Source of the DNA: an uncultured Rhizobiaceae group bacterium
GTDB taxonomy: Bacteria; Pseudomonadota; Alphaproteobacteria; Rhizobiales; Rhizobiaceae
DNA: 64,000 bases
Assembly: GCA_938010435.1 (NCBI GenBank)
Contig: CALLUS010000013.1
Location: 62,001-126,000, forward strand
Reading direction: 5' to 3'
The notes under the pieces are model-generated. The model saw only the letters and a program-made list of their open reading frames with translations. It did no database searches and was not told the origin of the DNA. Each line of letters opens with the position of its first letter. Positions within the stretch are counted from its first letter, which is position 1. Made by a program: the position numbers and the translations under genes. Below, one piece after another: positions 16,680-43,017 of the stretch.

Positions 16680-16702
16680 GAATACGTTCCTTTGAATTGA
16701 CC

Positions 16703-19730: not shown

Positions 19731-20270
19731 CTAAAAGTAATTCAGCATAATGTAGCGCAGTCCATCAGGCAGGAAATCATAAACCTGCCCTGCTGGAAGT
19801 TTCACCTGCAATAACGTCTTGAACAAGAAAACGATCAAAAAAGCGCATACCGCTGCTACCGCAAAAATGAAACGACTTCGGAAACCAACGCGAATTGTGA
19901 GCAACACTGCAACGATGAGAGTTGTTGGTAAATATCCGAGATAAGGAACAATGGCAGCATAGGCTATGAACCAAATTGCATATTCAATAGATCGCACCCA
20001 GAGCAGAACCTCTATCCAGCGGCCTGCAATGCGTTCCGACCAAGCCGAACCAAGTAAATGGAACATTGCGAAACCAGCCATGCCAATTAAAGAGACTGCA
20101 GGCCAAAACCGAGGTTGTGCGGCAAACTTTGCTCCTGGCTTTATTTCGGTTTGTTGAAACAGTTGCAGCAATAGGAACAAAGACAGGGCGAGAAAAACCC
20201 AAGCGAACACAATATCTCCAGGGCGACGATACCTCTTAAACAAAGACTGCAGTGTTCTCACACGCAACAT
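19731..20270 (-). CDS. tctB: Tripartite tricarboxylate transporter, small membrane subunit
   Basis: A 179-residue protein with four hydrophobic segments matching the TctB family in length and layout: one at residues 20-37, the second at 55-68, and two in the C-terminal half (IAYAAIVPYLGYLPTTLIVA; FIFAVAAVCAFLIVFLFKTL). TctB is poorly conserved, so identification relies on size, topology and position between TctC and TctA. It is separated from TctC by 77 bp that contain a strong stem-loop. Confidence 0.85.
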   Translation of the reverse strand: MLRVRTLQSLFKRYRRPGDIVFAWVFLALSLFLLLQLFQQTEIKPGAKFAAQPRFWPAVSLIGMAGFAMFHLLGSAWSERIAGRWIEVLLWVRSIEYAIWFIAYAAIVPYLGYLPTTLIVAVLLTIRVGFRSRFIFAVAAVCAFLIVFLFKTLLQVKLPAGQVYDFLPDGLRYIMLNYF

Positions 20271-20347: not shown

Positions 20348-21292
20348 CTACTTTTTCAACAAAGCGTCGATACCTGCGAGCGCCGATATGTCTGATTTGA
20401 TCAAAGCCTCAACATCGGTTGCCGCTTGCCAATAAACTGCTGCACCCGTTTCTTTAGCGAGTTTTTGTGCCCGCTCCGAAGCAACGGTTTTCTTTGCAAC
20501 AGCTATAATTTTATCACGCACATCTTGAGGGGTGTCCTTGTGAACAAATAAACCGTTCCAAAGTGCAACGTTCAAATCTGGAGCCAATTCAGCAACAGTT
20601 GGTATACCAGGTGTCAAAGCGATGCGTTCAGAACCAATAGATGCAAGAACTTTGATGTCTTTTAAACATGGAAGAATAAGTTGAAGCGTTGTATTGATCA
20701 CATCAACATCACCAGAAGCCAATGTGTTGCAATCAAGCGCATCAAAAGCCGCATCTGAAGAAAACTTAAAGCCCATCTTCTTAGCAAGACCAAAAGTGAC
20801 TTTGGTTGGAACCAACGGTGCACCGAAGTGACCTAAAACAACATCATTGGTTTGGGCATGTTTCGCCAAACCAGCAACGTCATTGTAAGGCGCATCTTTC
20901 CCTGTTGCGATAACGAATGGATACGTCAAAAAATTACCAAGCGGCACGAACGGGTCCGGGTTCAACTCAGCAATGCCGACTTGCGGGCCAACAACAGGCA
21001 CCGCAATGATAAACGAACCAATGGTGTATCCATCTGCGGGAGCTTTTGCGACTTCGACAGCGCCGGGAAAAGGGCCGCCGCCACCACCCGGCTTGTTCAC
21101 AACCGCTGCTGATACGCCATATTCTTTTTGGAAATCTTCTGCGATCATGCGCGTTAGAACATCTTCCAAATCACCTGGAGGCCATGGAACGATAAATTGC
21201 ACGGGCTTTTCTGGGTATTCGGCATGAGCAGCACCAGTCATTGCACCAAATGCAAGACCTGCAGCCACAACTGATTTTGTCAAAATAGACAT
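20348..21292 (-). CDS. tctC: TctC-type solute-binding protein
   Basis: A 314-residue periplasmic binding protein of the Bug/TctC family with a signal peptide (residues 1-24, cleavage after AHA before EYPEKPVQFIVPWPPGD). The VNKPGGGGGPF segment corresponds to the ligand-binding loop of the family. It delivers a carboxylated compound to TctBA. It is the first gene of the operon. Its 5' leader carries a GTTTCG/CGAAAC inverted repeat (21313-21329), and a TTGACA is visible further up. Ligand not predictable; the family takes carboxylates, amides and aromatic acids. Confidence 0.9.
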   Translation of the reverse strand: MSILTKSVVAAGLAFGAMTGAAHAEYPEKPVQFIVPWPPGDLEDVLTRMIAEDFQKEYGVSAAVVNKPGGGGGPFPGAVEVAKAPADGYTIGSFIIAVPVVGPQVGIAELNPDPFVPLGNFLTYPFVIATGKDAPYNDVAGLAKHAQTNDVVLGHFGAPLVPTKVTFGLAKKMGFKFSSDAAFDALDCNTLASGDVDVINTTLQLILPCLKDIKVLASIGSERIALTPGIPTVAELAPDLNVALWNGLFVHKDTPQDVRDKIIAVAKKTVASERAQKLAKETGAAVYWQAATDVEALIKSDISALAGIDALLKK

Positions 21293-21488
21293 AATTATTT
21301 TCTCCCTTGGTCGTTTCGTTTCTCGAAACTGGATTACAATAAAAAGTTTCCATGTTAAACAATTTCTGTCAAATCAATTCTGATAGACAATGAGCGCTTA
21401 AATTCCTGCGCGCACATCGTTTGCAATCAGCGTTTATATGCACATTATCCGATGCCAAAGCAGTTACTGGAAAAGGGAACTCTCCATC

Positions 21489-22841
21489 ATGAAAGACTCA
21501 AATTTTCTGAAAGAGAACAATGGTCGCCTCATGTGGCATCCCATGACCTCACCAAAAGACAGTATCGACAATCCGCCAAAAATCATCACTGAAGGTGAAG
21601 GTGTGAGCATCAAAGATATAGATGGGCATTCTGTGGTAGATGCAGTCGGTGGCTTATGGAATGTCAATCTCGGTTATTCCTGCCAACCCGTGAAAGATGC
21701 TATTGCATCCCAGTTGGATAGGCTTCCCTACTACTCCACATTTCGCGGAACATCGAACGATGCCGCTATCGAGTTATCTTATGAACTGAGCGAATTTTTT
21801 GCAGAAGATGGAATGAGCCGCGCCTTCTTCACGTCGGGTGGTTCGGATTCTGTTGAAACAGCCCTACGTCTGGCACGTCAGTACCATAAGTTGCGTGGCG
21901 AACCGGGACGGGTGAAATTCCTCAGCCTCAAAAAAGGTTACCACGGGACACACATTGGCGGTGCCAGCGTAAACGGAAATGCGAATTTTCGCACAGCCTA
22001 TGAACCACTATTGCCAGGCTGCTATCATATTCCTGCACCCTATACCTATCGCAACCCGTTCAATGAGACAGACCCGACAAAACTCGCGCAGCTTTGTGCC
22101 GCTGCTCTTGAAGATGAAATTACTTTCCAAGGGGCCAATACAATCGCAGCAATGATTATGGAACCCATTCTCGGAGCTGGTGGTGTGATACCACCCCATG
22201 AATCATTTGCGCCAATGGTGCGAGATATCTGCAACCGGAACGGTATTTTATTGATCACCGATGAAGTGATCACAGCGTATGGCCGCACAGGAGCGTGGTC
22301 AGGTGCACGTCTTTGGGGCATTCAACCGGACATGATGGCCACAGCAAAAGCAATTACCAACGGCTATTTCCCGTTTGGTGCGGTCATGTTGGGCCACAAA
22401 ATGGTTGAAACCTTCGAAAACAATCCTGACGCAAAAATTGGACACGGTTACACCTATTCAGGTCATCCGGTGGGAGCCGCAGCAGCAATTGCCTGTTTGG
22501 CAGAAACCAAACGGTTGAACGTTGTTGAAAATACAGCAGCGCGCGGCACCCAACTTTTTGAAGGCTGCAATGCGCTGAAAGAGAAATACAATATTATCGG
22601 CGATGTACGCGGTGGACACGGATTAATGACCGCGATCGAAATGGTCAGCGATCGAACCACCAAAAAGCCAATCGACGCTGAAACCGCAACAACTGTGCAA
22701 GAAGTCGCTTATCAATCCGGCGCAATGGTGCGCGTGTCTGGTCCCAATCTCATTTTGTCACCACCACTTGTTTTGACCGAGCAAGATGCCAGCACAATTC
22801 TATCAGCACTCGACGCTGGCTTTAAAGCGGCGCAAGGCTAA
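21489..22841 (+). CDS. Class III aminotransferase (omega-amino acid/amine type)
   Basis: A 450-residue PLP-dependent class III aminotransferase. ATG 21489 (MKDSNFLKENNGRLMWHPMT) is preferred to an upstream ATG because the family's N-terminus starts here and AAAAGGGAA precedes it. The substrate-side segment LWHPMT-like (LMWHPMTSP), the PLP-phosphate site FTSGGSDSVETALRLA, the DEVITAYGRTG segment and the Schiff-base Lys in TAKAITNGYFP are all present. It transfers an amino group from an omega-amino acid or amine to pyruvate or 2-oxoglutarate. The next gene starts right after its stop. It may feed or drain amine catabolism encoded further along. Confidence 0.87.
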   Translation: MKDSNFLKENNGRLMWHPMTSPKDSIDNPPKIITEGEGVSIKDIDGHSVVDAVGGLWNVNLGYSCQPVKDAIASQLDRLPYYSTFRGTSNDAAIELSYELSEFFAEDGMSRAFFTSGGSDSVETALRLARQYHKLRGEPGRVKFLSLKKGYHGTHIGGASVNGNANFRTAYEPLLPGCYHIPAPYTYRNPFNETDPTKLAQLCAAALEDEITFQGANTIAAMIMEPILGAGGVIPPHESFAPMVRDICNRNGILLITDEVITAYGRTGAWSGARLWGIQPDMMATAKAITNGYFPFGAVMLGHKMVETFENNPDAKIGHGYTYSGHPVGAAAAIACLAETKRLNVVENTAARGTQLFEGCNALKEKYNIIGDVRGGHGLMTAIEMVSDRTTKKPIDAETATTVQEVAYQSGAMVRVSGPNLILSPPLVLTEQDASTILSALDAGFKAAQG

Positions 22842-25945: not shown

Positions 25946-25948
25946 CCG

Positions 25949-27172: not shown

Positions 27173-27186
27173 TGGAGTAGTTTCCA

Positions 27187-29398: not shown

Positions 29399-30202
29399 TT
29401 ATTCAAATGAAATTGAAACGCTCGAGAAAGGCCCAAAGTCAGCTTCAATAACTGTGCCAGACGGACATTCCAAAGGTGCAATAAACGAGCCGGATAAAAC
29501 CACCTGCCCTGCTTCCAAACGCTGGCCATAGGAATACATACGGCGTGCGAGCCAAACCACAGACTTCACAGGATCATTCAGTACAGCCGCGCCCAAACCA
29601 GTACTCACCACTTCATTGTTCTTGCTGACAATGGCACCAGTCCAACGCAGATCAAATTCGCGAGGGTCGTGTTTGGCAGGTCCGGTCACAATTCCTGCAT
29701 TCGCCGCGTTGTCTGAAACCGTATCAAAAATAATTCGAGATTGCTCCGTATCAGGGTCTTTGCGCAGAATACGTGTGTCCAGAATTTCCAGCGAGGGCGT
29801 GACATAGTCTGTCGCGTTCAAAACGTCTTCGCGGGTGGCGTCACCAGAAATTGTATCTTTTAAAACGAATGCAATTTCTGCTTCCACACGCGGTTCGATA
29901 AAACGCGTTTTCGGCACCACATCACCAGAGGTGAACACCATATCATCATAGAGCACACCGCTGTCTGGCGTTTCGATACCCAAAGCTTCCTGCATGACTT
30001 TTGACGTAAGTCCGATTTTCCAGCCGACAATGTTACGTCCCCGCGCAAGCTTCATATCAATCTGCGCCTTTTGAATTGCATACGCATCATCCAGCGTCAT
30101 GTTTGGATGCGTTTTGCTGATCAGGCCAATTTGTGTCCTAGCCTCTTCCGCCTCAAGCAGGGCTTCAGCAGCAGTGTTGATCTGGTCTTGGCTCAGACTC
30201 AC
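29399..30202 (-). CDS. hpaH: 2-oxo-hept-3-ene-1,7-dioate hydratase
   Basis: A 267-residue member of the hydratase/decarboxylase branch of the FAH fold (HpaH/MhpD/XylJ). The start is GTG 30202, overlapping the previous stop by 4 bp (GTGA). Metal-binding residues lie in PRVEAEIAFVLK (two Glu), and VGWKIGLTSKVMQEALGIE and GDVVPKTRFIEPRVEAEIAF are family segments. It hydrates the dienoate formed in the homoprotocatechuate meta-cleavage route, before aldol cleavage. HpaI aldolase is not in the window. Last gene of the unit read from about 33612. Confidence 0.85.
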   Translation of the reverse strand: MSLSQDQINTAAEALLEAEEARTQIGLISKTHPNMTLDDAYAIQKAQIDMKLARGRNIVGWKIGLTSKVMQEALGIETPDSGVLYDDMVFTSGDVVPKTRFIEPRVEAEIAFVLKDTISGDATREDVLNATDYVTPSLEILDTRILRKDPDTEQSRIIFDTVSDNAANAGIVTGPAKHDPREFDLRWTGAIVSKNNEVVSTGLGAAVLNDPVKSVVWLARRMYSYGQRLEAGQVVLSGSFIAPLECPSGTVIEADFGPFSSVSISFE

Positions 30203-31074
30203 GTCTCATCCTCCACCCCATTACGCAACACACCAATGCCTTCGGCTTCCACTTCGATCACATCACCTGGCTTCAACCAAATCGGCGGATCGAAACGTGC
30301 GCCCGCACCCGTCGGCGTTCCACACACAATAACATCACCCGGCACCAAAGTGGTAAAGGTTGAAATATAATTCACAATATAGCGGAAATCATACATCATC
30401 CGGCCCGTACGATCTTGCTGACGCACTTCTCCATTCACCCGTGTTTCCAGATGAATATCATCCAATTGTTCAGCGGAACGGAACGGAACCAGCCAAGGAC
30501 CAATAGCGCCTGTGCTGTCCCAATTTTTACCTTGAGTCACATTGAATTTGGCGTGGCGCACCCAATCGCGAATTGTACCTTCGTTACAAAGGCTCAGTGC
30601 CGCGATATGATCATAGGCATTTTCGCGCGCGATGCGGCGGCCACCTTTCCCGATCACAATGACAATCTCACCTTCATAGTCCAATTGTTCACTTTCAGGC
30701 GGGCGCACAATATTCTGGCCATGACCCGTAAAACTGCGTGGAAAGCGGATGAACATAGACGGTTTTGAAGGTGCCGCCTGTCCATCTTTATATTCTGCAT
30801 TGCGGTCAGGAAAATTAACACCAATGCAGATGATTTTCTCTGGCCTTGCAACAGGGATGAGATACTCAACATCAGCTTCCTGGTGTGTTACAGGTTTGCC
30901 CTCTCCAGCTTCAATAACTTCTTCCAAAGCGCCAGCCACAACAACAGCTTGCAGATCATCAAACCGATCTTTGAAATCATCTAAAAGATCAACAATGCCA
31001 TTGTCAGTTACGAGTCCGAAACGAACTTTGTCACCAATGCGAAATTCGGCAACCCTTGCTGGAATAGAAGTCAT
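30199..31074 (-). CDS. hpaG: Fumarylacetoacetase-fold decarboxylase/isomerase, HpaG-like
   Basis: A 291-residue FAH-family protein. ATG 31074 is chosen for AAGGAA upstream and for starting the conserved MTSIPARVAEFRIGDKVRFG. The metal site is visible in LDYEGEIVIVIGKGG and earlier ICIGVNFPDRNAEY; the C-terminus has PGDVIVCGTPTGAGARFDPP. In the homoprotocatechuate pathway such proteins isomerise and decarboxylate the tricarboxylate intermediate. No separate HpaF isomerase is nearby, so this single-domain protein may do both steps, or the isomerase lies elsewhere. Confidence 0.8.
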   Translation of the reverse strand: MTSIPARVAEFRIGDKVRFGLVTDNGIVDLLDDFKDRFDDLQAVVVAGALEEVIEAGEGKPVTHQEADVEYLIPVARPEKIICIGVNFPDRNAEYKDGQAAPSKPSMFIRFPRSFTGHGQNIVRPPESEQLDYEGEIVIVIGKGGRRIARENAYDHIAALSLCNEGTIRDWVRHAKFNVTQGKNWDSTGAIGPWLVPFRSAEQLDDIHLETRVNGEVRQQDRTGRMMYDFRYIVNYISTFTTLVPGDVIVCGTPTGAGARFDPPIWLKPGDVIEVEAEGIGVLRNGVEDET

Positions 31075-31087
31075 ATTTTCAGTTTCC

Positions 31088-32068
31088 TTATGGAGCAATG
31101 ATTGGTGAAGCTTTCATGTTGCTGGCAACAGCTTCAACACCTTCAAACAACGAGCCGTGTTCAAACCAAGACTTTGGTGCAGGTGCACCCCAGAGCGTCT
31201 GACGTTGCGGGTCTTGCAAATCCCATTTGATGGCTTCCAGATCCGGATCAACGGTTTGATAATCAGAACAGTAGATCTCAATACGGTGCCCATCCGGGTC
31301 TAAGATATAGAGAAAGAATGCATTTGAAATGCCGTGGCGACCGGGACCGCGTTCAATATTATCCACATAACCTGTGGTGGCCATCAGATCGAGAAGGTCC
31401 ACAATATTCAGTGGTGTTGGCACCCAAAATGCCATGTGATGCAACCGCGGGCCCGTGCCGCTGGTGAACGCCATATCGTGAACACCACCTTTGCGGTGCA
31501 TCCATGCTGCCCACAGTCGTTTACTATCATCGTCTTCTGTGTATTCCGTCGTGCGGAAACCCATTTCGTTATAGAACGCAACGGCTTCATCAACATCAGG
31601 TACAAAACAATTAAAATGGTCAATGCGCAGCGGCTTCACACCATTATACAAAGCATATTTTTGGTGGATGGGTTCAAGGCGTTCCATCTTAAAATAAAAC
31701 TCGATTGGAATACCCAGATTATCATGAGTGAGAAGTGTCCGCCCTTGATGCGTCCGTTCAATCCACTCTACTTTATAACCCTTGGATACAAACCAGTCAT
31801 GAGCCTTATCGAGTTCTTCCTCGGCGAAAACTTTAAAGCCCAGAATTTTCACGCTGATGTCGTCAGACTTCTGTAAAATAACTGAGTGATGACCGCGCTC
31901 TTCCATGGCGCGCAGATAAATGGCTCTGTCATCTTCAGTCGTCACCTGTAGGCCAAGCGTATCAACATAGAAGGCTCTAGACGCTGCAAGGTCTTTACAC
32001 CCTACCGCAATATGGCTGAGACGAATTATGTTAAAGGGCGGATAAAGAACTGGATCAGGAATTGGCAT
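31088..32068 (-). CDS. hpaD: Homoprotocatechuate 2,3-dioxygenase (extradiol, VOC fold)
   Basis: A 326-residue extradiol dioxygenase made of two VOC domains. ATG 32068 follows ACGGAGATCGAG and starts MPIPDPVLYPPFN. Fe(II) ligands fit HFN (first His, segment LRIDHFNCFVPDV), RLHHMAF (second His) and HRIEIY (Glu), the 2-His-1-Glu triad. AAWMHRKGGVHDMAFTSGTG and IERGPGRHGISNAFFLYILD closely match the Brevibacterium-type enzyme as I remember it. It opens the 3,4-dihydroxyphenylacetate ring next to the diol, giving a semialdehyde for HpaE, encoded just upstream (32-bp gap). Confidence 0.88.
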   Translation of the reverse strand: MPIPDPVLYPPFNIIRLSHIAVGCKDLAASRAFYVDTLGLQVTTEDDRAIYLRAMEERGHHSVILQKSDDISVKILGFKVFAEEELDKAHDWFVSKGYKVEWIERTHQGRTLLTHDNLGIPIEFYFKMERLEPIHQKYALYNGVKPLRIDHFNCFVPDVDEAVAFYNEMGFRTTEYTEDDDSKRLWAAWMHRKGGVHDMAFTSGTGPRLHHMAFWVPTPLNIVDLLDLMATTGYVDNIERGPGRHGISNAFFLYILDPDGHRIEIYCSDYQTVDPDLEAIKWDLQDPQRQTLWGAPAPKSWFEHGSLFEGVEAVASNMKASPIIAP

Positions 32069-32100
32069 CTCGATCTCCGTGTTAAAATTGAATGTGAGGG

Positions 32101-33612
32101 TCAACCGCCCAGTTTTGGAATTTTATGCTCAGCACGTGGGAAACTAACATTGACGGTTTCCATATAGAAATCGAATGACCAATCACCACCATCGCGGCCG
32201 ATACCGCTGGATTTCACACCACCAAACGGTGTCGGCAAGTGCCGGATATTTTCAGAATTGACCCACATCATACCAGCTTCCAATTTATCAGTCATTCGCA
32301 TGGCACGGTTCAGATCATTAGTCCAAAGGTAGGCCGCTAATCCGTATTGAACATCGTTGGCAAGCTCCAACGCGTCCGCTTCATCTTTAAACGGAATTGC
32401 GGTTAAGACAGGGCCGAAAATTTCCTCTTGGGAAATCGCCATATCGTTACGTGCGTTGGTGAACAAAGTTGGTCCGATATAGCAACCATCCTTACCTATT
32501 TTTTCACCGCCGGCAGCAATCGTTGCGCCCTCTTTTTTTGCGACCTCAAAATAGGACAACACTTTTTCTTCGTGCACGGGATGGATCAACGGCCCCACCA
32601 CAGTTTCCGGATCGAGTGGGTGCCCAACCTTGATAGACTTCGCCACTTTGGCAACACGAGCCGTGAATTCTTCATAGATCGTGTCTTGCACCAACAGGCG
32701 CGACGAGGATGTGCAACGCTCTCCGTTAAGCGAGTAGATCATGAATGTAGCTGCATCCACTGCGCGATCCAAATCTGCATCATCAAAAACGATCACCGGG
32801 TTTTTACCACCCAATTCAAAATGCACACGCTTCAACGTGGCCGCACCCTGCCGCATTATGTGTGAGCCGGTATTGCTTTCGCCAACGAATGCAATGGCTT
32901 TGATGTCTTTGTGTTCAGTCAAAGATTTGCCAGCAGTTTCACCTAAGCCATTGACCACATTCAACACACCTTTCGGAAGACCCGCGCTTTCGGCAATTTC
33001 AACCAACAATTTAGCCGTCATGGGCGAAAATTCAGCAGGCTTTTGAACCACTGTACAACCTGCAGCCAGCGCCGGCGCAACCTTCCAGGTGGACAACATA
33101 AACGGTGTGTTCCACGGAGTGATCACACCAACCGGCCCAATGGGGCGGCGCGTTGTCGTGTTCATCTGTGTGGGTGTACGGGTCACCGCACCATCTTCCG
33201 AAGCAGGTGCTTGATCAGCAAAGAAGCGGAAATTTGCTGCGCCCCGCAAAGCCGCTTTCGACATAAAGCGCAGAGCTTGGCCTGTATCCATGCACTCCAC
33301 AAAAGCAATTTCTTCTGCGCGGGCTTCAATAGCTTCAGCAACTTTAATCAGAATTTTACGACGTTCAGCACCAGGTGTTTTTGACCATGTTTTAAATGCC
33401 TCTTTCGCCGCTTTAGCTGCACGGTCAATATCTGCAGCATCACTTTTGGCAACTTGTGCCAGTACTGTCAGATCCACTGGAGAAATAATATCAAACGTTT
33501 CTCCACTGACGGCAGCAACAGTTTCACCGCCAATATGATTCATTACACCTTCTTTGGCAAAACGAGCCATAAAATCTTTAGCACGGGCAATGTTGTCTTC
33601 AAGAATGCTCAT
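32101..33612 (-). CDS. hpaE: 5-carboxymethyl-2-hydroxymuconate semialdehyde dehydrogenase
   Basis: A 503-residue aldehyde dehydrogenase. ATG 33612 is preceded by GAAGGA and is preferred to an upstream in-frame ATG. It has FELGGKNPVIVFDDAD (active-site Glu) and LNGERCTSSSRLLVQ (catalytic Cys), the GERC variant common in HpaE-type enzymes. It oxidises the ring-cleavage semialdehyde to the dicarboxylate with NAD+. It is the first gene of hpaE-hpaD-hpaG-hpaH, with promoter element A about 130 bp upstream. The neighbouring extradiol dioxygenase makes this more specific than a generic ALDH call. Confidence 0.87.
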   Translation of the reverse strand: MSILEDNIARAKDFMARFAKEGVMNHIGGETVAAVSGETFDIISPVDLTVLAQVAKSDAADIDRAAKAAKEAFKTWSKTPGAERRKILIKVAEAIEARAEEIAFVECMDTGQALRFMSKAALRGAANFRFFADQAPASEDGAVTRTPTQMNTTTRRPIGPVGVITPWNTPFMLSTWKVAPALAAGCTVVQKPAEFSPMTAKLLVEIAESAGLPKGVLNVVNGLGETAGKSLTEHKDIKAIAFVGESNTGSHIMRQGAATLKRVHFELGGKNPVIVFDDADLDRAVDAATFMIYSLNGERCTSSSRLLVQDTIYEEFTARVAKVAKSIKVGHPLDPETVVGPLIHPVHEEKVLSYFEVAKKEGATIAAGGEKIGKDGCYIGPTLFTNARNDMAISQEEIFGPVLTAIPFKDEADALELANDVQYGLAAYLWTNDLNRAMRMTDKLEAGMMWVNSENIRHLPTPFGGVKSSGIGRDGGDWSFDFYMETVNVSFPRAEHKIPKLGG

Positions 33613-33739
33613 ATTTTGGTCCTTCGATCTCTTCCGACAGGGCAAGTCTGAATTTGTATGTCCCTGCTCAAATACTGAAAGTTTTGTCGTTTTATTAAGA
33701 AGCTCAAAAATCCGGGTTTTGACATTTGTCGGCGCTTAA

Positions 33740-33817: not shown

Positions 33818-35029
33818 CTACAGCAACGACTTGAGATCAAAATCAGGGTTTGCGGCCACATCAGTTGGGATAGATTTCCCAGCTTCCAGCAAGCGCTTAC
33901 CCACCATATAAACGCGCGGCTCGTTTATGGCATCAATCGCCAACAACTTATCACCTGCATAGTACAAATGAGAGATCGCGTCAGTCTTGATGCCTACCCG
34001 CACAACAACCTTATCGTACCCCCGGTTCAAACCAACAATTTGCAGTTTGACGTCATACTGGTCAGACCAAAACCAAGGTTTAGCATCGTAAGGTTTTGGA
34101 CCTGAAACCATGTTCGTAGCAATCAGATTCGCTTGATCAATGGCATTGGGAACAGATTCAATACGAGTAGGATGTCCGTTGAAGAAAAATACCGCACAGT
34201 CTCCAGCGGCAAAAATATTCGGGTCACTGGTTTGGCAAAACCCATCCACAGTAATGCCACCATCCACCTCAAGGCCAGCCTCTTCCGCAAGCTCCGTATT
34301 GGGAATGATCCCGATACCGATCAATACAAAATCTATGTCGAGCGTTGTTCCATCTGAAAGTGCGGCTTTATTCAATCGGCCCGATTCTCTTGACAAATCA
34401 TCCAACCCAACACCTTCTTTGAAAATGACACCATGGCTTTCATGAAGCTCACGAAACCAATCGGATGTTTCGCGACAAGCTACCCGCTGCAAAATACGAT
34501 CAGCCGCTTCAATCACAGTCACTTTCAAACCTTTGGACACACAAACAGATGCAGCCTCCAGTCCAATATAACCGCCGCCCACAATCAGAACACTGCGACC
34601 TTCAATCAGTTCACCTCCAAACCCATCGGCATCTTTAAGGTCACGCAGATAGTGAATTCCAGACAACTCTTTGGTCAACGCATCTGGTAATTTTCGCGCA
34701 CGCGACCCGGTAGCAAAAACCAGTTTATCCCAGTTGATTTTACTCCCATCTTCCAATTTAACTGTCTTAGAGGCGCGGTCGATAGAGACGACTCTAGTGC
34801 CACTGCGCAACTGCACATTATTCTCACTATACCAGTTTTCCGGTCTCAGCATCAGCTGCGACTTATTAATCTCGCGTGTGGCATATTTTTTAGAAAGCGG
34901 TGGACGTTGGTAAGGGACAAACGGCTCATCACCCAATATAGTCACAGGTGTCGTTTGGTCCAATGATCTGAACTTCACAGCAAACGATACTGCTGCTTGC
35001 CCACCACCAATAACGACTACACCGCTCAT
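33818..35029 (-). CDS. Ferredoxin/rubredoxin reductase-like FAD oxidoreductase
   Basis: A 403-residue FAD/NAD(P)H oxidoreductase of the putidaredoxin-reductase/AlkT type. The FAD site is VVVIGGGQAAVSF at the N-terminus, the NAD(P) site VLIVGGGYIGLEAASV near residue 145, and the second FAD contact is NIFAAGDCAVF. ATG 35029 is preferred (MSGVVVIGGGQ); 35044 is possible. Such enzymes pass electrons to a ferredoxin for a P450 or ring hydroxylase, and a P450 gene lies two genes upstream. No ferredoxin gene is visible in the cluster, so the intermediate carrier must be elsewhere or absent. Confidence 0.87.
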   Translation of the reverse strand: MSGVVVIGGGQAAVSFAVKFRSLDQTTPVTILGDEPFVPYQRPPLSKKYATREINKSQLMLRPENWYSENNVQLRSGTRVVSIDRASKTVKLEDGSKINWDKLVFATGSRARKLPDALTKELSGIHYLRDLKDADGFGGELIEGRSVLIVGGGYIGLEAASVCVSKGLKVTVIEAADRILQRVACRETSDWFRELHESHGVIFKEGVGLDDLSRESGRLNKAALSDGTTLDIDFVLIGIGIIPNTELAEEAGLEVDGGITVDGFCQTSDPNIFAAGDCAVFFFNGHPTRIESVPNAIDQANLIATNMVSGPKPYDAKPWFWSDQYDVKLQIVGLNRGYDKVVVRVGIKTDAISHLYYAGDKLLAIDAINEPRVYMVGKRLLEAGKSIPTDVAANPDFDLKSLL

Positions 35030-35075
35030 ATTTTCATGTTCCAAAAATTACGTGACAGAGGTTAGCGTTTCAAAC

Positions 35076-36356
35076 CTAGACAAAAGGCAAATAGAAGTCG
35101 CGAACTTCTTTTGCGGTTTTTCCGTCAAGACGCTCAAACTCATCGCGCTTTAGCGTAATCAAAGCTTCAGTGTACAACTCACCCACTGCCTTGCGCAAAG
35201 ATTCATCTTTTTCCAAAATGTCAAGAGCCTTGCTCAAGTCTTCCGGAACGTGTCGTGTTTCGCGTGTATTCTCCAAACCATCCATATCTTCAGCATCTTG
35301 CAATATCATGGCGCCATCAACACCCAATTTTGCTGCTTGGAGAACGGCTGTAACAGCTTGATACGGATTGGTTGCGCAATCAGCCGTTCGGTGTTCAAGA
35401 CGTGCAGATTTTGGAGACGATGTGGAAGTTCGCGTCGTGACCAACCGGTGGTCTTCCGCCCAGTTGGCCCAATATCCAGCGAGACTGGCTTCGCCCAAAC
35501 GATCGTAGCTGTTGACTGTAGTCGCCAACAAAGCTGGCAGCGCTTCATGGTGATGAATAAGTCCCGCAACGCATTGCTTTGCCATATCAGACAAACCACC
35601 ATCAGGTGCAATAGTATTGTTGCCACCTTTGTCCAAGAAACTAAAATTCACGTGCAAACCAGAACCACCACGCTCAGCAATTGGCTTGGGCATGAATGTG
35701 AGTAACAGACCTTTTTTCGCTGCGACTTCTCGCGCCATGGTCTTCATGAGAAACGCATCGTCACAAGCTTTCATTGCATCGTCAAAACGCATAGTTAGCT
35801 CGAATTGACCATTATCATATTCACCATTCATACTCTCTATCGGCAGATCGCAGGCACAGGCCGTTTCCCAAATATCATCCATAACTCCAAGCGGATCATT
35901 CTGCGGGCCAGTGCCGTAAACAAATGCCCCGGGCGTATCGTATGGCTGCCAATCACCGTTTTCATCTTGTTGGAAAAGATAGGCTTCGGTTTCCAAACCA
36001 ACCATCGGTTTGTAGCCCATAGCTTCCCACTCACTGATTGTACGGGCCAATTGAGACCGCGCGCACAAACCAAACGGCTCACCATCTGCTTCAAGATGCC
36101 CAAGCGCTATTTCAGTTCCAGCCTGCCAACTGGTGCGGCGCTCTTTATCAAGTTTCAACTCCATATCCGGCAAACCATCGAAAAACCCAACGCCGGGAAC
36201 AGGCAACAAATCACGGTCAAAGGACACCGCAAACACACCACGCGCAAACCCAAGTGAACCACCAGCAGCCACATCAACAGGAACATATTTTCCGCGGGGA
36301 AAATTGAGCATATCGTTGAATAAAGCGCGTGTGCGCGTAATATTAGTTTGTGTCAT
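35076..36356 (-). CDS. Glutamine synthetase-like gamma-glutamyl ligase
   Basis: A 426-residue GS-fold ligase. Catalytic-domain motifs are visible in order: VGLETEAYLF, NGEYDNGQFELTMR (metal Glu pair), GSGLHVNFSF (ATP/metal His), NSYDRLGEAS and RLEHRTADCATNPYQA (phosphate and glutamate Arg). Divergence from GlnA and the catabolic setting suggest gamma-glutamylation of an amine (as in PuuA, IpuC or aniline-pathway TdnQ/AtdA1) rather than ammonia assimilation. It lies 1 bp after the P450 gene and in one unit with a class I amidotransferase, the combination known from aniline catabolism. The amine substrate is unknown. Confidence 0.82.
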   Translation of the reverse strand: MTQTNITRTRALFNDMLNFPRGKYVPVDVAAGGSLGFARGVFAVSFDRDLLPVPGVGFFDGLPDMELKLDKERRTSWQAGTEIALGHLEADGEPFGLCARSQLARTISEWEAMGYKPMVGLETEAYLFQQDENGDWQPYDTPGAFVYGTGPQNDPLGVMDDIWETACACDLPIESMNGEYDNGQFELTMRFDDAMKACDDAFLMKTMAREVAAKKGLLLTFMPKPIAERGGSGLHVNFSFLDKGGNNTIAPDGGLSDMAKQCVAGLIHHHEALPALLATTVNSYDRLGEASLAGYWANWAEDHRLVTTRTSTSSPKSARLEHRTADCATNPYQAVTAVLQAAKLGVDGAMILQDAEDMDGLENTRETRHVPEDLSKALDILEKDESLRKAVGELYTEALITLKRDEFERLDGKTAKEVRDFYLPFV

Positions 36357-36357
36357 A

Positions 36358-37590
36358 TCAGGCTACCTTCGTTCTCACGTTTAAGCGCTTTACGCCGCTT
36401 ATGAAATTTGATCGTGTCCATGTTGGTTCATCAATCGCCTCAAACGTATCGATGCGTTTTATCAACTCTTGCAGGACGATACGAACTTCCAATTTTGCCA
36501 AATGCATACCCAGACACACATGCGCACCACCCTGCCCGAAAGCTAGATGGCGGTTTGGCGTACGGTCAAGAACCGGAGCGTGTGGGTTTTCAAAAACAGT
36601 TTCATCACGGCTACCTGAGATAAACCACAAAAGAACCTTGTCTCCTTCACGAATGATTTTCCCGTGTAGTTTATAGTCCTGCGTTGCTGTGCGCCGAAAG
36701 TGCATGGTGGGTGAGGCCAGACGGATAAACTCATCCGCACACATGTCCCAACAATTGCCTTCGCGCAACTGCGCGATCAATGCAGGGTCATGAGCCAATA
36801 GGTTCAAGGCCATGGCAATTGAATATCGTGTTGTATCATTCCCCGCTGCCACCAACAGGCAAAAGAAATTCTTAAAACCCAGTTCATCCAAACCGTCTTC
36901 ACTATTCATCATGCGCGCAAGAATACCACCATCTGTAGCTATTCGCCGCTTTGCCAATAGATCATCTGCGTAATCATAAAGCTCCATACCGGCAGGGCTG
37001 CGGAACGGCATCATACGGTATGCACTTGTGTCCATTTTATCGACCACAGTGTCTGTGAAATCGGGATCGGTGTTGCCAATTAATGCATCCCCTTTTTCAA
37101 CCAACCATTCTAAGTCTTCATCAGGCACACCCAAAATGCGCCCCAACATCATCATTGGTAATTGTTTTGCAATTGCATCCACCGCATCAAACTCTGAGGC
37201 CATCAAGGCTTTTTCCACAATGTCTGATGCCAGAGTCCGGATAACTTCTTCAAACTGCCCCACAACCGGTTTTGCAAAACTTGGGTTCACTTTACGGCGC
37301 ACCGCGAAGTGTTCTTGCCCATCTGTTTCTTGAAAAGTGCGGCGCGCCATATATTCTTCATGGCTTTGGTCTTCAAGGCGAATGCCCTGGGCTGAACTAA
37401 AAATTGCACCTTCACGGTTGGCCAGCATGATATCGGCAAAACGTGTCAGGCTCCAAAAGCCTTTGGTTTCGGAGTCACCATCAGTCCAATTGACTGGATC
37501 TTTCTTCCGCAATCGCTCAAATGTCTTATGAGGTATGCCACCAGCAAAACTGTCATGGCTTAAAAGATTTAGATGACCATCATCATGCAT
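36358..37590 (-). CDS. Cytochrome P450
   Basis: A 410-residue bacterial class I P450. ATG 37590 (MHDDGHLNLLSHDSF) overlaps the amidotransferase stop by 8 bp; a longer frame from 37644 would overlap more. The I-helix VAAGNDTTR, the K-helix ExxR (DEFIRL) and the haem-binding loop FGQGGAHVCLG with Cys359 are all intact. It probably hydroxylates or N/O-dealkylates the pathway substrate, with electrons from the FAD reductase in the same unit. A P450 next to a GS-like gene recalls the piperidine/morpholine gene groups of mycobacteria, from memory. Confidence 0.9.
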   Translation of the reverse strand: MHDDGHLNLLSHDSFAGGIPHKTFERLRKKDPVNWTDGDSETKGFWSLTRFADIMLANREGAIFSSAQGIRLEDQSHEEYMARRTFQETDGQEHFAVRRKVNPSFAKPVVGQFEEVIRTLASDIVEKALMASEFDAVDAIAKQLPMMMLGRILGVPDEDLEWLVEKGDALIGNTDPDFTDTVVDKMDTSAYRMMPFRSPAGMELYDYADDLLAKRRIATDGGILARMMNSEDGLDELGFKNFFCLLVAAGNDTTRYSIAMALNLLAHDPALIAQLREGNCWDMCADEFIRLASPTMHFRRTATQDYKLHGKIIREGDKVLLWFISGSRDETVFENPHAPVLDRTPNRHLAFGQGGAHVCLGMHLAKLEVRIVLQELIKRIDTFEAIDEPTWTRSNFISGVKRLNVRTKVA

Positions 37591-38311
37591 TTTGAATGCC
37601 TTCTTTGAAAAAATTGGTCGTCCATTGCGCAAAGGTTTTGCCATTCGCTTGTAGATTCATACTTTTCCGGGCAGCAGCTACATCAGCATCGTGCATTTTG
37701 GATTCTGTGAAGTCTAAAACACACGACATAAATTCATGGGTAAATTCTGGATGTGCTTGGGTCGTGAAAATATGATTACCCTTCGCAAAACTGGCGAATT
37801 TGCATTTTTCGCTGGAACCCAGAACTTCACATCCTATAGGTAATTCCGTCACTTGATCCTCATGGAAAACATACATCGGCAGGCTATCAAGTTCAGGCGT
37901 CATCCAAGACCTATTGGCAACGAAACTCGTTTCTTCGATACCCACATTGTAACCTTCAGGAGATTTTTCCACCTTCCCACCCAATGCAAGTGCAATGGCT
38001 TGGTGACCAAAACACGCTCCCATCAGTGGCTTCTTGGCAACATCGCAACGACGAATAAAATCTATTAAAGCGTCGGAAAATATGTGTTCGTCCAAAACAC
38101 TCAACGGACTGCCCGTGATCAAAAAAGCGTCTTGTTCATCCAGATTTTTTGGAACTTCCCCACCGATCGTCATATAAACTTGATATTGAAATCGATCATC
38201 TTGAAGATCAAATATATCGCGAAAACGATGGGCATCATCGGGAAAAGCGTCACCAACCTCGATGCTTTTGTCGTGGTTTGTTTGGAGTATGCCAAGCTTA
38301 ATACGCTCCAT
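37583..38311 (-). CDS. Class I glutamine amidotransferase-like hydrolase
   Basis: A 242-residue GATase1-fold protein related to the GMP synthase amidotransferase domain, standing alone. The triad is intact: Cys100 in GACFGHQAIALALGG, His187 and Glu189 in TTQAHPEF. In aniline-type pathways such proteins (TdnT/AtdA2) hydrolyse the gamma-glutamyl amide made by the GS-like ligase, and both genes are in this unit. PuuD-like removal of glutamate from gamma-glutamyl compounds is the same idea. First gene of the unit, 48 bp downstream of promoter element B. Confidence 0.8.
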   Translation of the reverse strand: MERIKLGILQTNHDKSIEVGDAFPDDAHRFRDIFDLQDDRFQYQVYMTIGGEVPKNLDEQDAFLITGSPLSVLDEHIFSDALIDFIRRCDVAKKPLMGACFGHQAIALALGGKVEKSPEGYNVGIEETSFVANRSWMTPELDSLPMYVFHEDQVTELPIGCEVLGSSEKCKFASFAKGNHIFTTQAHPEFTHEFMSCVLDFTESKMHDADVAAARKSMNLQANGKTFAQWTTNFFKEGIQNA

Positions 38312-40080: not shown

Positions 40081-41019
40081 TCACTGAGCAATGGATATAC
40101 GCTTTAATGTATCCCGAGTCGCATTTTTTTGCTCTGAACTCGAACCTTCCAGCGCAGCACTTTCCTGTTCGCGAGCAAGGTCAAACAAATGAACCACCCG
40201 TTCATGTCCACTTTTGGTTCCGCGCGCAATTCTCGAATCCGCCTCACCAGATACGACACAAAGGCCATCTTCTTGAAGAAAACCCAAAATATCTTCCAAT
40301 GATTTTGGATCAAGAAAAGTCTGTTCAGCAAGGGTAGATAAAGCAAGTGTCGATTGGCCATGGAGCGATGCCAATATACGCCACTGTGCAACCGTCAAAC
40401 CACTGTCACGAACTGCATCGTGAAACTCGTTGCTCATCCGGTGATAAGCACGCGAGAGATGATAAAAGAACATATCTTCCACCAGACCTTCTGCATCATG
40501 ATCAACGGCATCACTTTTACTCAATGTCGTAAGAGGTGCAGCAATGGCGTATGAGCCGCCACCAAAGACCAAACCTTCTTTGGTTTCAGTATCAATAGAC
40601 TTGACTTCACCTACAATGATCCAGTGATCACCACCTTCGTAGACAGACCAAGTTTTACAATCAAAACGCGCAGCACAACCTTCCAGGATTGGCACATTAT
40701 TCTCGTTCATTGAGAAAACAGTATGCGCAAATTTGTCAGCACCGCTTTTTGCAAATTTATTGGACAAATCGGTTTGATCACTTGCCAAAACATGAATGGA
40801 AAAATACTCAGCTTTTTTAAAAGCAGGTGCACTTCGCGCTGTTTTTGTGACACTCCACAGAACCAAAGGGGGCTCTGTCGATACAGAGTTAAAACTGGAC
40901 GCGGTCATACCGACAGACTGACCTTCATGATCAGTTGCAGTGACAATTGTTACCCCGGTTGCGAAACTGGACAACGCATCACGAAATCCACGAGCGTCAA
41001 AATCGTTGAGCTTTGCCAT
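40081..41019 (-). CDS. Flavin reductase with C-terminal MarR-like domain (HpaC/C1-like)
   Basis: A 312-residue two-domain protein. Residues about 5-165 are a flavin_reduct domain (FRDALSSFATGVTIVTATDHEG, GMTASSFNSVSTEPPLVLWS). Residues about 185-312 form a MarR-like winged-helix region (LTVAQWRILASLHGQSTLAL, LEDILGFLQEDGLCVV). This matches the C1 reductase of p-hydroxyphenylacetate hydroxylase from Acinetobacter, whose MarR-like tail senses the aromatic substrate and gates flavin reduction. It starts 9 bp after the HpaB-like oxygenase and should supply it with FADH2 or FMNH2. Confidence 0.88.
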   Translation of the reverse strand: MAKLNDFDARGFRDALSSFATGVTIVTATDHEGQSVGMTASSFNSVSTEPPLVLWSVTKTARSAPAFKKAEYFSIHVLASDQTDLSNKFAKSGADKFAHTVFSMNENNVPILEGCAARFDCKTWSVYEGGDHWIIVGEVKSIDTETKEGLVFGGGSYAIAAPLTTLSKSDAVDHDAEGLVEDMFFYHLSRAYHRMSNEFHDAVRDSGLTVAQWRILASLHGQSTLALSTLAEQTFLDPKSLEDILGFLQEDGLCVVSGEADSRIARGTKSGHERVVHLFDLAREQESAALEGSSSEQKNATRDTLKRISIAQ

Positions 41020-41028: not shown

Positions 41029-42519
41029 TCACGCCAGAGACAGAAGATTATCGACACGACCGGTCAATGGGTCTTTGTCGTAGAGATCATAATAAGCAGA
41101 TGCCATTAAAGCGGGTGGACCAAAGAAGAAACGCTCGTATAGCGCTTGTCTTGTACCGAATCCGGAAATAGCTACGTCATGAGCCAAACGATAAAGCGCC
41201 ACACGGTCACGCGATTCCAAATTGGTCAACTGAAAATACTGTGCAACATCATGTGCTATTTCATTTGAAAAATCGGCTTCTGCCGGTGTTGCCATTAATG
41301 AGGATGATCCAAGCAATTGCATAATTTCGATCATGCGGGGATACATCCGTGGATACAAATTGCGCGATGTTTCCAATGGCCCGCGTAGTGGCACAAAATT
41401 CCCATATTCGTCTTCATGGGATTGTGCTTCAGCAGAGTACAATAGCGCACGTATAGTTTCAGTCATTTGCATGACTTCAGCAATCAACCCTTTGGTATAG
41501 AGATCTTTGTCACGGCCGGTAGCTTTCGCAATAGAACAAAGAATGCCCGTGATGAATTCAGATTTTGCCAGCTTACCGCAAGCCACTTGATGCATCATAT
41601 GAACCACCGCGTTGGTTGCACCAAACGCTTGATTGCAAAGTTCCGGTTGACCATAAAGGAAAATTCTCTCCCACGGCACCAGCACGTTTTCAAAGATGAC
41701 TACAGCATCCATCTCCTCATATCGGGAAGACAAAGGAGCGTCGAAGTGAGATTTGCCTTCGTCGTAGGTATCGCGGCAAATCAGTTTCAATCCGGGAGTG
41801 GCGATAGGCAACGCGAACGCAAAGGCGAATGGAATATTGTCGTCAGACGCTTTTAAAACAGTCGACGGGAAAACTTCAATTTCATCAGCAAGAGGACCCA
41901 GAGTGGCTAGCAAACGCGCACCGTTCACAATGACACCAGCGTCCGTTTCTTTGACAATTTGCAACGCAACCTTGTCAGAAAACTTGCCGGATGCCGCTTG
42001 TTGAAAATTAACGCTCGGGTTAACGAGCGTATGCGTCAACACCTTATCATTCTTACGCGCAAAATTGTAAAAATCGACCATGTTGCGGGCCATAGCTTCC
42101 CCGCCTTGCCCTTTGAAACCTTGTGCCAAAAAACTGGTGGCCGACGCAAAAGACATCAATGAAGCATTTTTGTAATCTGGCGTGCGACCAAACATGCCGT
42201 TCGACCATTTAGCCCATTCATAATAGGCGCGACCACGGGCTTTCACATCGTCAAGAGATTTCGGCATCTGATATGCCATGGCGCAACGATCACCATCGTC
42301 ATCCACATAGGTGACCGTGTCGATAAATTCGGGTTTGTGTTGGTTGTCCAGGAAGCTTGCAAGCGTCGCAGCGCCACGTGCCATACCCGGTTCCGTAGTG
42401 ACATCTGCAACACGCTTGCCACGGGTCCACACTTCACGGTCATCACGCAAACCTCCCAAATATTCCGCACCTGTACGAATTCCAAAATGTTGGCGGCCCA
42501 TAATTTCTGTAACTGACAT
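41029..42519 (-). CDS. hpaB: HpaB-family flavin-dependent phenol monooxygenase
   Basis: A 496-residue member of the 4-hydroxyphenylacetate 3-hydroxylase family (HpaB, about 520 residues in E. coli). The conserved N-terminal stretch (GRQHFGIRTGAEYLGGLRDDREVW), middle domain with LPIATPGLKLICRDTY and the C-terminal helical domain (VAQYFQLTNLESRDRVALYR) are present. With reduced flavin from the adjacent reductase it should ortho-hydroxylate a phenol such as 4-hydroxyphenylacetate to the catechol opened by HpaD at 31088. Family relatives act on other phenols, so the exact substrate is inferred. Confidence 0.85.
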   Translation of the reverse strand: MSVTEIMGRQHFGIRTGAEYLGGLRDDREVWTRGKRVADVTTEPGMARGAATLASFLDNQHKPEFIDTVTYVDDDGDRCAMAYQMPKSLDDVKARGRAYYEWAKWSNGMFGRTPDYKNASLMSFASATSFLAQGFKGQGGEAMARNMVDFYNFARKNDKVLTHTLVNPSVNFQQAASGKFSDKVALQIVKETDAGVIVNGARLLATLGPLADEIEVFPSTVLKASDDNIPFAFAFALPIATPGLKLICRDTYDEGKSHFDAPLSSRYEEMDAVVIFENVLVPWERIFLYGQPELCNQAFGATNAVVHMMHQVACGKLAKSEFITGILCSIAKATGRDKDLYTKGLIAEVMQMTETIRALLYSAEAQSHEDEYGNFVPLRGPLETSRNLYPRMYPRMIEIMQLLGSSSLMATPAEADFSNEIAHDVAQYFQLTNLESRDRVALYRLAHDVAISGFGTRQALYERFFFGPPALMASAYYDLYDKDPLTGRVDNLLSLA

Positions 42520-42552: not shown

Positions 42553-43008
42553 TCAATTATTTTCCGTCATCAATTCGTGTTCATGTTCGCTCTCACCGGT
42601 GGATATTTTATCCAGAATAGTTTGCAGGGTCTGCCATTCTTCAGGAGAAACGGAATGTGCAATACGATCATGAATCTCTGCAACTTGCGGAGTCATTTCT
42701 TGCTGTAAAGTGCGTCCCATCGCAGTCGCGACCACGTATACCTGACGTCGGTCTTCTACAGAGCGAACCCGACTCACCAACCCTTTTTTCTCCAAACGAT
42801 CAATAATGCTGACCAGGCTTGGTGGTGACAGCAATGTGCGCTCTGAGAGTTCAGACGAGGTTACGCTTTTGCTTGTCCAAATGACGCGCAACACGCGCCA
42901 TTGTTGCTCAGTCACTTCGTATCTGGAAAACAATTCCCGATAGACCGGCATCACACGATCCAGCGCGCGGCTCATAATCATTGGAAAGGATTGGTCAAAA
43001 CTGATCAT
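42553..43008 (-). CDS. hpaR: MarR-family regulator, HpaR-like
   Basis: A 151-residue MarR protein. ATG 43008 (MISFDQSFPMIMSRALDRVM) is used; an upstream TTG would add three residues. The winged helix spans about residues 40-105 (VTEQQWRVLRVIW, SELSERTLLSPPSLVSIIDRLEKKGLV, RVRSVEDRRQVYV). The sequence style (LSRALDRVMPVYRELFSRY and TEQQWRVLR) and position directly upstream of the HpaB-like gene fit HpaR, the repressor of homoprotocatechuate genes released by the aromatic acid. It may bind the AT-rich repeats upstream of its gene. Confidence 0.85.
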   Translation of the reverse strand: MISFDQSFPMIMSRALDRVMPVYRELFSRYEVTEQQWRVLRVIWTSKSVTSSELSERTLLSPPSLVSIIDRLEKKGLVSRVRSVEDRRQVYVVATAMGRTLQQEMTPQVAEIHDRIAHSVSPEEWQTLQTILDKISTGESEHEHELMTENN

Positions 43009-43017
43009 AACATTCAA

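Follow-up and report, generated by a model that had tools for sequence, protein, structure and literature searches.

A cytochrome P450 and glutamine synthetase-like gene unit beside homoprotocatechuate cleavage genes: a candidate gamma-glutamyl route for arylethylamine catabolism

In the Puu pathway of putrescine degradation (PuuA to PuuD), the amine is gamma-glutamylated and then processed by a flavin oxidase, an aldehyde dehydrogenase (ALDH), and a gamma-glutamyl hydrolase. The classical Hpa pathway of homoprotocatechuate degradation does not, to our knowledge, include a unit encoding a cytochrome P450, a glutamine synthetase (GS)-like protein, and a class I glutamine amidotransferase (GATase)-like protein, such as the unit that precedes the hpa genes of the DNA described here. 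In the isopropylamine (Ipu) pathway, known from Pseudomonas sp. KIE171 and Paenarthrobacter aurescens TC1, the GS-like ligase acts first, followed by the P450 and by a postulated amidotransferase step, the roles of the TC1 proteins being predicted or postulated in the available part of the source (PMC6776027). The aniline and 1-naphthylamine systems (Atd, Tdn, and Npa) associate a GS-like ligase, a GAT-like hydrolase, and an oxygenase (PMC11335346, available part). The mycobacterial pip and mor genes for cyclic amines associate P450s with ferredoxin partners, and Gulosibacter has GS genes at locus numbers neighbouring those of the P450 genes (PMC9477822, available part). Here, we analyzed a 64-kb window (the whole stretch of DNA under study, positions 62001-126000 of contig C13, from an uncultured Rhizobiaceae bacterium) and the rest of the source genome (3.57 Mb), with emphasis on a four-gene unit encoding the GATase, the P450, the GS-like protein, and a ferredoxin reductase (FdR). 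We propose that the unit may participate in arylethylamine catabolism, the substrate being most likely tyramine (or dopamine), via gamma-glutamyl intermediates that would be channeled into homoprotocatechuate cleavage, a reading to which we assign a probability of about one half (0.49).

The unit is located on the minus strand in the order GATase, P450, GS-like protein, and FdR, and the Pfam assignments agreed for every family.

37583..38311, minus strand: class I GATase-like protein, probable gamma-glutamyl hydrolase (PF00117; nearest structure, Gamma-glutamyl peptidase 1)
36358..37644, minus strand: cytochrome P450 (PF00067; start at 37644 or 37590)
35076..36356, minus strand: GS-like protein, probable gamma-glutamyl amine ligase, in a clade of its own (PF00120; tree and active-site residues)
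33818..35044, minus strand: FdR of the Rieske/P450 type, TTG start (PF07992 and PF14759, Reductase_C)

The GATase and P450 genes overlap by 62 bases if the first ATG of the latter is used, or by 8 bases if translation starts at the ATG at 37590. The P450 and GS genes are separated by 1 base, and the GS and FdR genes by 31 bases. The top NCBIfam model for the FdR was AndAa (323.6 versus 650 bits). The open reading frame coordinates and the Pfam matches thus bear out the first-pass annotation, made from the sequence of the window, in which the four genes were described as lying on one strand with tiny gaps or overlaps. The same annotation saw no ferredoxin gene in the unit, and tblastn searches of the window with three P450-type ferredoxins as queries agreed in giving no match at 1e-4. 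The same queries matched a 2Fe-2S ferredoxin encoded elsewhere in the source genome (G000:C23; 50% to the ferredoxin of locus L056), in a comparison that covered 8 of 12 Fer2 places.

The closest gene set is found on plasmid pTC1 of P. aurescens TC1, in which genes for a GATase, a P450, a ferredoxin, an FdR, and ipuC are adjacent; Agrobacterium leguminum carries a similar GATase-P450-ferredoxin-FdR-ipuC set. The combination of genes in the window is therefore not new, contrary to the initial proposal. The likeness to the Ipu system, as compared with TC1, resides in the clustering of a GS-like ligase, a P450, an FdR, and a GATase. In contrast to the TC1 cluster, the window unit lacks a ferredoxin gene, and its products are distant from those of TC1: identity is 29% for the GS, which falls on a separate branch, and 30% for the P450, and the window GATase gave no blastp match at 1e-5 with the TC1 GATase encoded beside the P450 (28% over 144 residues with the other TC1 GATase). 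The genetic context also differs, since the window set is accompanied by another transporter, homoprotocatechuate genes, and a transaminase gene, and in some relatives by a DOPA-decarboxylase-like gene. The window differs from Atd, Tdn, and Npa by its oxygenase, a P450 rather than a Rieske enzyme, and by other downstream genes; no Rieske dioxygenase was found among the 20 window proteins scanned. The pip and mor genes act on heterocyclic amines, and no GATase is mentioned in the available part of their description (PMC9477822). The distinction from these last two groups of systems is made on their descriptions. The P450 of the unit contrasts with the flavin oxidase of the Puu pathway, and the PuuA-like gene of the source genome is separate from the unit. 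The likeness to the Hpa pathway lies in the HpaE, HpaD, HpaH, and HpaB-1 matches above cut-off in the window.

To characterize the GS-like protein, 61 proteins were aligned and 16 positions were scored, 50 rows being taken as the window clade; we assume the conventional GS residue numbering and residue roles. The equivalents of E129, E131, E212, E220, H269, R321, R339, R344, E357, and R359, which would bind glutamate, ATP, or metal, were invariant in the 50 rows of the clade, as was one Gly among the scored positions. The ammonium-site residues were replaced in all 50 rows, by Ala, Cys, or Ser for Asp50 and by Met or Leu for Glu327; IpuC and PuuA likewise lack both. In the tree, the 48 proteobacterial rows of the clade formed a group (100/100) that two Streptomycetaceae rows joined at 97/88. 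PuuA, IpuC, and their relatives formed a separate group (99/89), in which IpuC of TC1 paired with its Agrobacterium relative (100/98), and GlnA paired with GlnT (100/95). Long branches meet in this tree, including at the Streptomycetaceae and IpuC joins, so that the deep joins are unsure and the root serves for drawing only. With this limit on the deep joins, the GS of the unit groups in the tree neither with GlnA of ammonia assimilation nor with IpuC. Identity with GlnA was not supported, on the position outside the GlnA/GlnT pair and on model scores (TIGR00653, 179 of 429 bits; TIGR03105, 205 of 470 bits), and identity with PuuA on the separate branch and the NF045547 score (211.5 of 650 bits). 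The source genome contains four GS genes in total, including that of the unit: a GlnA-like GS that retains the ammonium site, located elsewhere and apart in the tree; a PuuA-like GS with a neighbour that looks by eye like a flavin oxidase; and a further GS that groups with PuuA. These features indicate that the GS-like protein is probably an amine gamma-glutamyl ligase.

The nearest solved structures of the P450 were CYP125, CYP268, CYP126, and CYP124. The heme loop and the ExxR motif were present in all 35 relatives and the I-helix motif in 33, the two misses being a contig-end fragment (L021) and a full-length match (L025). The His-x-Glu motif of the GATase was likewise present in 35 of 35 relatives and its nucleophile motif in 33, both misses (L031 and L035) being cut by a contig end. 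With Gamma-glutamyl peptidase 1 as the closest solved structure (E 5.8e-20), the GATase is a probable gamma-glutamyl hydrolase.

The distribution of the set was explored by collecting 41 loci from genome contigs with the GS protein as the sole query; gene counts per locus are based on the best tblastn label at 1e-15 within the fetched flanks. By their titles, the loci belong to Rhodobacteraceae, Rhizobiaceae, SAR116, Granulosicoccaceae, Chromatiales, and other groups, with several marine names. The P450 gene was directly upstream of the GS gene in 35 of the 40 loci with room for it, and the GATase gene was at most 1.5 kb upstream in 35 of 39. A homologue of TctC, the substrate-binding protein of tripartite tricarboxylate transporters (TTT), was encoded at most 2.4 kb upstream in every locus with room (34/34). 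The FdR gene was found in only 4 of the 41 loci. With about 8 P450 genes in the 3.57 Mb of the source genome, any given gene would have one at a distance of 2 kb or less in about 1% of cases; the linkage of three of the four genes is thus beyond chance. The expected conservation of the four-gene association therefore holds for GS, P450, and GATase and only sometimes for FdR. The P450 was missing upstream at L016, L018, L039, L040, and L044, and L017 had no room for it. In the L016 genome, P450 and GATase genes occur in the same island at a distance of about 25 kb, and the L018 genome has a second GS-P450-GATase set. The GS clade was rare, being detected in 6 of 289 sampled genomes of the class (1e-60) and in 5 of 398 of the phylum (1e-75), the source genome included in both cases. 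The assignment to enzyme families, the catalytic motifs, the lost ammonium site of the GS, and the linkage can be read from the sequences themselves. A second GS-P450-GATase set was observed in Rhodobacteraceae bacterium HTCC2150 (L072, 8141-11323), besides a GS gene adjoining TTT genes; this set is divergent, as in Ruegeria sp. TM1040 (identities of 49% for GS, 56% for P450, and 33% for GATase).

Downstream of the unit, on the same strand, are hpaE, hpaD, a FAH-family gene, and hpaH; genes for HpaB, a flavin reductase, and a MarR-type regulator lie about 2-5 kb upstream.

32101..33645, minus strand: HpaE, CHMS dehydrogenase (TIGR02299, 767.8 bits; cut-off 638.35)
31088..32104, minus strand: HpaD, 3,4-dihydroxyphenylacetate 2,3-dioxygenase (TIGR02295, 414.1 bits; cut-off 321.4)
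30199..31098, minus strand: FAH-family protein, possible HpaG role (PF01557; TIGR02303, 175.1 bits, under the 276.4 cut-off)
29399..30202, minus strand: HpaH, 2-oxo-hept-4-ene-1,7-dioate hydratase (TIGR02312, 359 bits; cut-off 351.5)
41029..42519, minus strand: HpaB, 4-hydroxyphenylacetate 3-monooxygenase oxygenase (TIGR02309, 519.9 bits; cut-off 480.2)
40081..41019, minus strand: flavin reductase of the HpaB system (PF01613; NF045919, 236.6 bits, under the 340 cut-off)
42553..43017, minus strand: MarR-type regulator, named by eye (11 of the 41 loci have a similar gene, often adjoining hpa genes)

HpaD, HpaE, and HpaH exceeded their NCBIfam cut-offs for homoprotocatechuate meta-cleavage and the FAH-family protein missed that of HpaG, in agreement with the original placement of the unit upstream of homoprotocatechuate cleavage genes. 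On the other side of these genes, the window encodes a transaminase, an ALDH, and a transporter.

21438..22841, plus strand: class III omega-transaminase (PF00202; PRK07481 subfamily, 732 bits, cut-off 575; nearest structure 5lh9)
20348..21292, minus strand: TctC-type substrate-binding protein (70% to the annotated TTT binding protein of TM1040)
19731..20270, minus strand: TctB-type small subunit (39% to the annotated TctB of TM1040)
18193..19713, minus strand: TctA-type permease of a TTT (69% to the annotated TTT permease of Ruegeria sp. TM1040)
16703..18187, minus strand: ALDH, most PuuC-like (PF00171; none of the 25 NCBIfam models listed reaches its cut-off)
15447..16718, minus strand: UPF0261 protein of unknown function (PF06792 and PF23189)

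Several of these genes travel with the set. HpaD was encoded in 17 of the 41 loci, and HpaD, HpaH, or a FAH-family protein in 18; a transaminase like that at 21438 was found in 14 and an ALDH like that at 16703 in 16. In L092, from another class, the order GATase-P450-GS-ferredoxin-ALDH-transaminase-UPF0261 ties the transaminase and the ALDH to the P450/GS/GATase trio. The UPF0261 gene occurred in 13 of the 41 loci, and additionally in L092 and L093; since this protein co-travels with the set, the pathway may supply its function. In Pseudooctadecabacter (G289; L073, L115 = G289:C5, and L016), the whole pathway is encoded in one island of about 27 kb, comprising genes for P450, GATase, a kinase, a phospholyase, transaminase, ALDH, UPF0261, HpaF, HpaE, HpaD, a decarboxylase, FAH, HpaH, GS, and TctC; this genome gave no match to the HpaB-1 model.

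A DOPA-decarboxylase-like gene was present in 4 of the 41 loci, the L026 protein being nearest to DOPA decarboxylase 7xin (368 bits). The decarboxylase gene is located in the hpa operon of G289 (64%) and directly adjoins the P450 gene in L054-L056 (39-40% to the L026 protein); in the source genome an unlinked gene encodes a decarboxylase 55% identical to the L026 protein. Conversion of the decarboxylase into an aldehyde synthase was considered and rejected, because the catalytic-loop Tyr, at the position that we take to be that of human DDC, was retained in the L041, L054, and source-genome proteins (checked by eye). An APH-type kinase gene was found in 6 of the 41 loci. A phospholyase-like gene was found in 11 by tblastn and in 9 by clustering, immediately after the GS gene in five (L020, L022, L031, L040, and L050); the L050 protein comes closest to phospholyase 5g4i and to ethanolamine-phosphate phospho-lyase 6tor. 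No close phospholyase was found in the source genome (best match, 30%). A further class III transaminase-like gene of the source genome (G000:C7, 17285-19031) adjoins a P450 gene; its match to the phospholyase is at 30%.

In addition to clusters of the window's kind, designated type A, a LigB-type dioxygenase gene was found clustered with P450 and GS genes in L011, L054, L055, L056, L091, and L059 of Streptomyces canus, designated type B. L054-L056, from three genomes of one family, encode in sequence a HpaE-like ALDH, the LigB-type dioxygenase, FAH and ADC-family proteins, the decarboxylase, P450, GS, ferredoxin, and FdR; in L056, the LigB-type dioxygenase was confirmed and a phospholyase-like gene (43%) lies beyond the FdR gene. 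In S. canus, ferredoxin, FdR, ADC, ALDH, dioxygenase, and FAH genes are divergent from GS-P450. In L011, an ALDH gene whose top model is HpaE immediately follows the GS gene. The occurrence of HpaD-type and unrelated LigB-type enzymes in such clusters, in two phyla, indicates that the association with homoprotocatechuate-type cleavage recurs.

HpaD and HpaB-1 were searched for in 24 genomes, 18 of type A (the source genome and 17 that we chose from the 41 loci) and six others. HpaD was above cut-off in 17 of the 18 type-A genomes, the last one (G671) having two fragments. HpaB-1 was above cut-off in five, including the source genome, and weaker in two (G295 and G296); the model gave no match at 1e-30 in the other 11, of which 10 had HpaD above cut-off. 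Among the six non-type-A genomes, HpaD of the window's type was found in none, HpaB gave a weak match in G263, G037, and G165 and none in G510, G514, and G579, and four carried a LigB-type enzyme at 57-61%. The presence of HpaD without an HpaB-1 match in over half of these 18 type-A genomes implies that the catechol is formed by the P450, that the substrate is itself a catechol, or that a hydroxylase was missed; in these genomes, the catechol may come from the P450 route.

In the proposed route, the GS-like enzyme would couple the amine to the gamma-carboxyl group of glutamate at the expense of ATP (step 1), and the P450 would hydroxylate the gamma-glutamyl amide with electrons delivered by the FdR and a 2Fe-2S ferredoxin encoded elsewhere (step 2), most likely at ring C3 to give gamma-glutamyl-dopamine. 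The GATase-like protein would hydrolyze the amide into hydroxylated amine and glutamate (step 3), and the omega-transaminase and ALDH would produce 3,4-dihydroxyphenylacetate (homoprotocatechuate; step 4) for cleavage by HpaD and further conversion by HpaE, the FAH-family enzyme, and HpaH (step 5). The substrate, the position of hydroxylation, and the relative order of steps 3 and 4 are our inferences. The decarboxylase, the transaminase, the ALDH, and HpaD are in keeping with tyramine or dopamine, and hydroxylation at C3 accounts for the genomes lacking HpaB while drawing on the main type-A genes. A bolder version, which strikes us as rather doubtful, is a protect-hydroxylate-deprotect relay, in which the amine of tyramine would be masked with glutamate, the P450 would form gamma-glutamyl-dopamine, and the mask would be removed in type A or kept through LigB cleavage in type B, the P450 route being able to replace HpaBC. 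In type B, the retained glutamate would prevent cyclisation between the amine and the product of ring cleavage.

Several observations weigh against the tyramine route. The source genome has HpaBC, so that the P450 is not needed for ring hydroxylation, and among the 17 other type-A genomes HpaB was above cut-off in four and weakly matched in two. In six further type-A genomes, searched at 1e-60 for HpaB and not for HpaD, HpaB was above cut-off in two, weak in two, and without match in two. The HpaB absences rest on the HpaB-1 model, the HpaB-2 model not having been run, many of the genomes are metagenome-assembled and possibly incomplete, and the HpaD and HpaB rates come from set-bearing genomes only. 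HpaD was absent from G510 and G514, which have P450-GS-GATase-transaminase sets, their LigB matches being distant (27-29%). In type-B clusters, neither a transaminase like that at 21438 nor a clear GATase was seen near P450-GS, L091 giving only a partial GATase match (27%). The four LigB enzymes scanned matched only HpaD_Fe (TIGR02298), at 127-141 bits for a cut-off of 316, and the type-B HpaE-like ALDHs were likewise under cut-off. The genomes of L017, L039, L040, and L044 have the GS and no P450 at 1e-60. Among the P450 relatives of solved structure are hydroxylases of steroids, lipids, and alkanes, and TTT transporters usually carry carboxylates. In the GS clade, the His271 equivalent, a His in all reference rows, was Asn in 48 of the 50 rows, and the Asn264 equivalent was changed, as in IpuC, PuuA, and GlnT. 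Finally, Cupriavidus GlnT, annotated as an ammonia ligase, also lacks both ammonium-site residues, indicating that such a loss is no proof of an amine ligase.

The same class of substrates might be oxidized by the P450 on the side chain instead of the ring, which we regard as unlikely, if the best of the alternatives. Hydroxylation at the alpha position would split the amide into an arylacetaldehyde and glutamine, with the GATase as a safety hydrolase, and leaves the transaminase unexplained. At the beta position, hydroxylation followed by the GATase, the kinase, and the phospholyase would lead to the arylacetaldehyde in an Ipu-like manner, a scheme that benefits from the kinase (6/41 loci) and phospholyase-like (9 or 11/41) genes, both present in the G289 island, but fails at loci lacking them and finds no close phospholyase in the source genome. 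The Ipu system provides a precedent, since its P450 system converts gamma-glutamyl-isopropylamide into gamma-glutamyl-alaninol, with release by the amidotransferase postulated (PMC6776027, available part). Side-chain oxidation is also consistent with the type-B clusters that lack a transaminase or a clear GATase, with the ALDH gene that follows GS in L011, although its top model is HpaE, and with the HpaB-bearing genomes, in which ring hydroxylation would not be required. It leaves unexplained where the catechol originates in the 11 type-A genomes (of 18) without an HpaB-1 match, unless the substrate is dopamine.

We hold it to be improbable that an Ipu-type trio serves an unrelated amine, such as a small alkylamine or a TTT-imported amino acid, with the homoprotocatechuate genes as separate neighbours in the island. 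The gene set is identical in kind to that of Ipu, 20 of the 41 loci have no hpa gene in the fetched flanks (some contigs being short), HpaD is absent from G510 and G514, and TctC is encoded upstream of GS in all 34 loci with room for it, TTT systems being usually carboxylate carriers. Against this, the GS and P450 are only 29% and 30% identical to the TC1 Ipu proteins and the GATase likeness is weak or nil, homoprotocatechuate-type genes recur with two unrelated dioxygenases, including in an Actinomycetota plasmid, and the decarboxylase gene adjoins that of the P450 in L054-L056.

An aniline-type route, in which the ring amine would be glutamylated and oxidized to a catechol by a P450 replacing the Rieske dioxygenase, is highly improbable. 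The nitrogen of aniline is released by the dioxygenase and would not be released by a monooxygenase. The analogy with aniline catabolism drawn in the first-pass annotation is weakened by the lack of a Rieske oxygenase (0/20 window proteins scanned) and by partner genes for arylethylamine and homoprotocatechuate enzymes, even if gamma-glutamylanilide synthase, GAT-like enzyme, and oxygenase form a known order (PMC11335346, available part). A GS of ammonia assimilation with unrelated neighbours can practically be dismissed: the PF00120 fold and the GlnT precedent would allow it, but the ammonium-site residues are replaced in 50 of 50 rows, an intact GlnA is encoded elsewhere in the genome, the tree position and the TIGR00653 and TIGR03105 scores disagree, and the catabolic neighbours are conserved.

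Of the initial proposal of a new amine-oxidizing unit, the amine part was supported, the GS-like ligase, the P450, and the probable hydrolase looking built for an amine beside homoprotocatechuate genes; the novelty of the combination was not. The apparent novelty lies in a distant clade that is linked to homoprotocatechuate cleavage and, in part of the genomes, also to genes for a DOPA-decarboxylase-like protein and an omega-transaminase. No account of the set for aromatic amines was found among the titles and abstract openings listed from the open literature, subscription journals being mostly outside this scope. If the tyramine route is correct, many Pseudomonadota (41 loci) and at least one Actinomycetota plasmid would apply to natural aromatic amines the gamma-glutamyl and P450 chemistry known for isopropylamine. 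The route would explain the supply of homoprotocatechuate in HpaD-bearing genomes lacking an HpaB-1 match and provide a substrate prediction for a GS clade annotated merely as glutamine synthetase family protein. Another GS-GATase-P450 trio, with a GS of a different branch, was observed in Sagittula stellata and Novosphingobium humi (L058, 9890-13197; L060, 9871-13191); the Sagittula GS is 24% identical to the window GS and its gene lies near a salicylyl-CoA hydroxylase gene.

Two further associations were considered and set aside. In TM1040, the set adjoins paaABCDE, but a search for PaaA, C, D, and E in 53 other loci detected them only in Tritonibacter L063, with proteins 92-98% identical to those of TM1040, so that a link with phenylacetate is not a conserved trait. 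Positions 24129-28680 of the window (plus strand) encode a NicX-like protein, an alpha/beta hydrolase, an acyl-CoA-dehydrogenase-like protein, and an AMP ligase. The NicX-like protein, with no Pfam match at 1e-5, is nearest to 2,5-dihydroxypyridine 5,6-dioxygenase 7cn3 (E 7.7e-50). The first three genes were each found in 7 of the 41 loci, directly after GS in L019, L037, and L052; the module is hence optional and was rejected as the purpose of the unit. Upstream of hpaB, the window also contains a sulfatase-like gene (44335-45957, minus strand) and an amino-acid-type ABC transporter set (46929-49194, plus strand), both named by eye from their translations.

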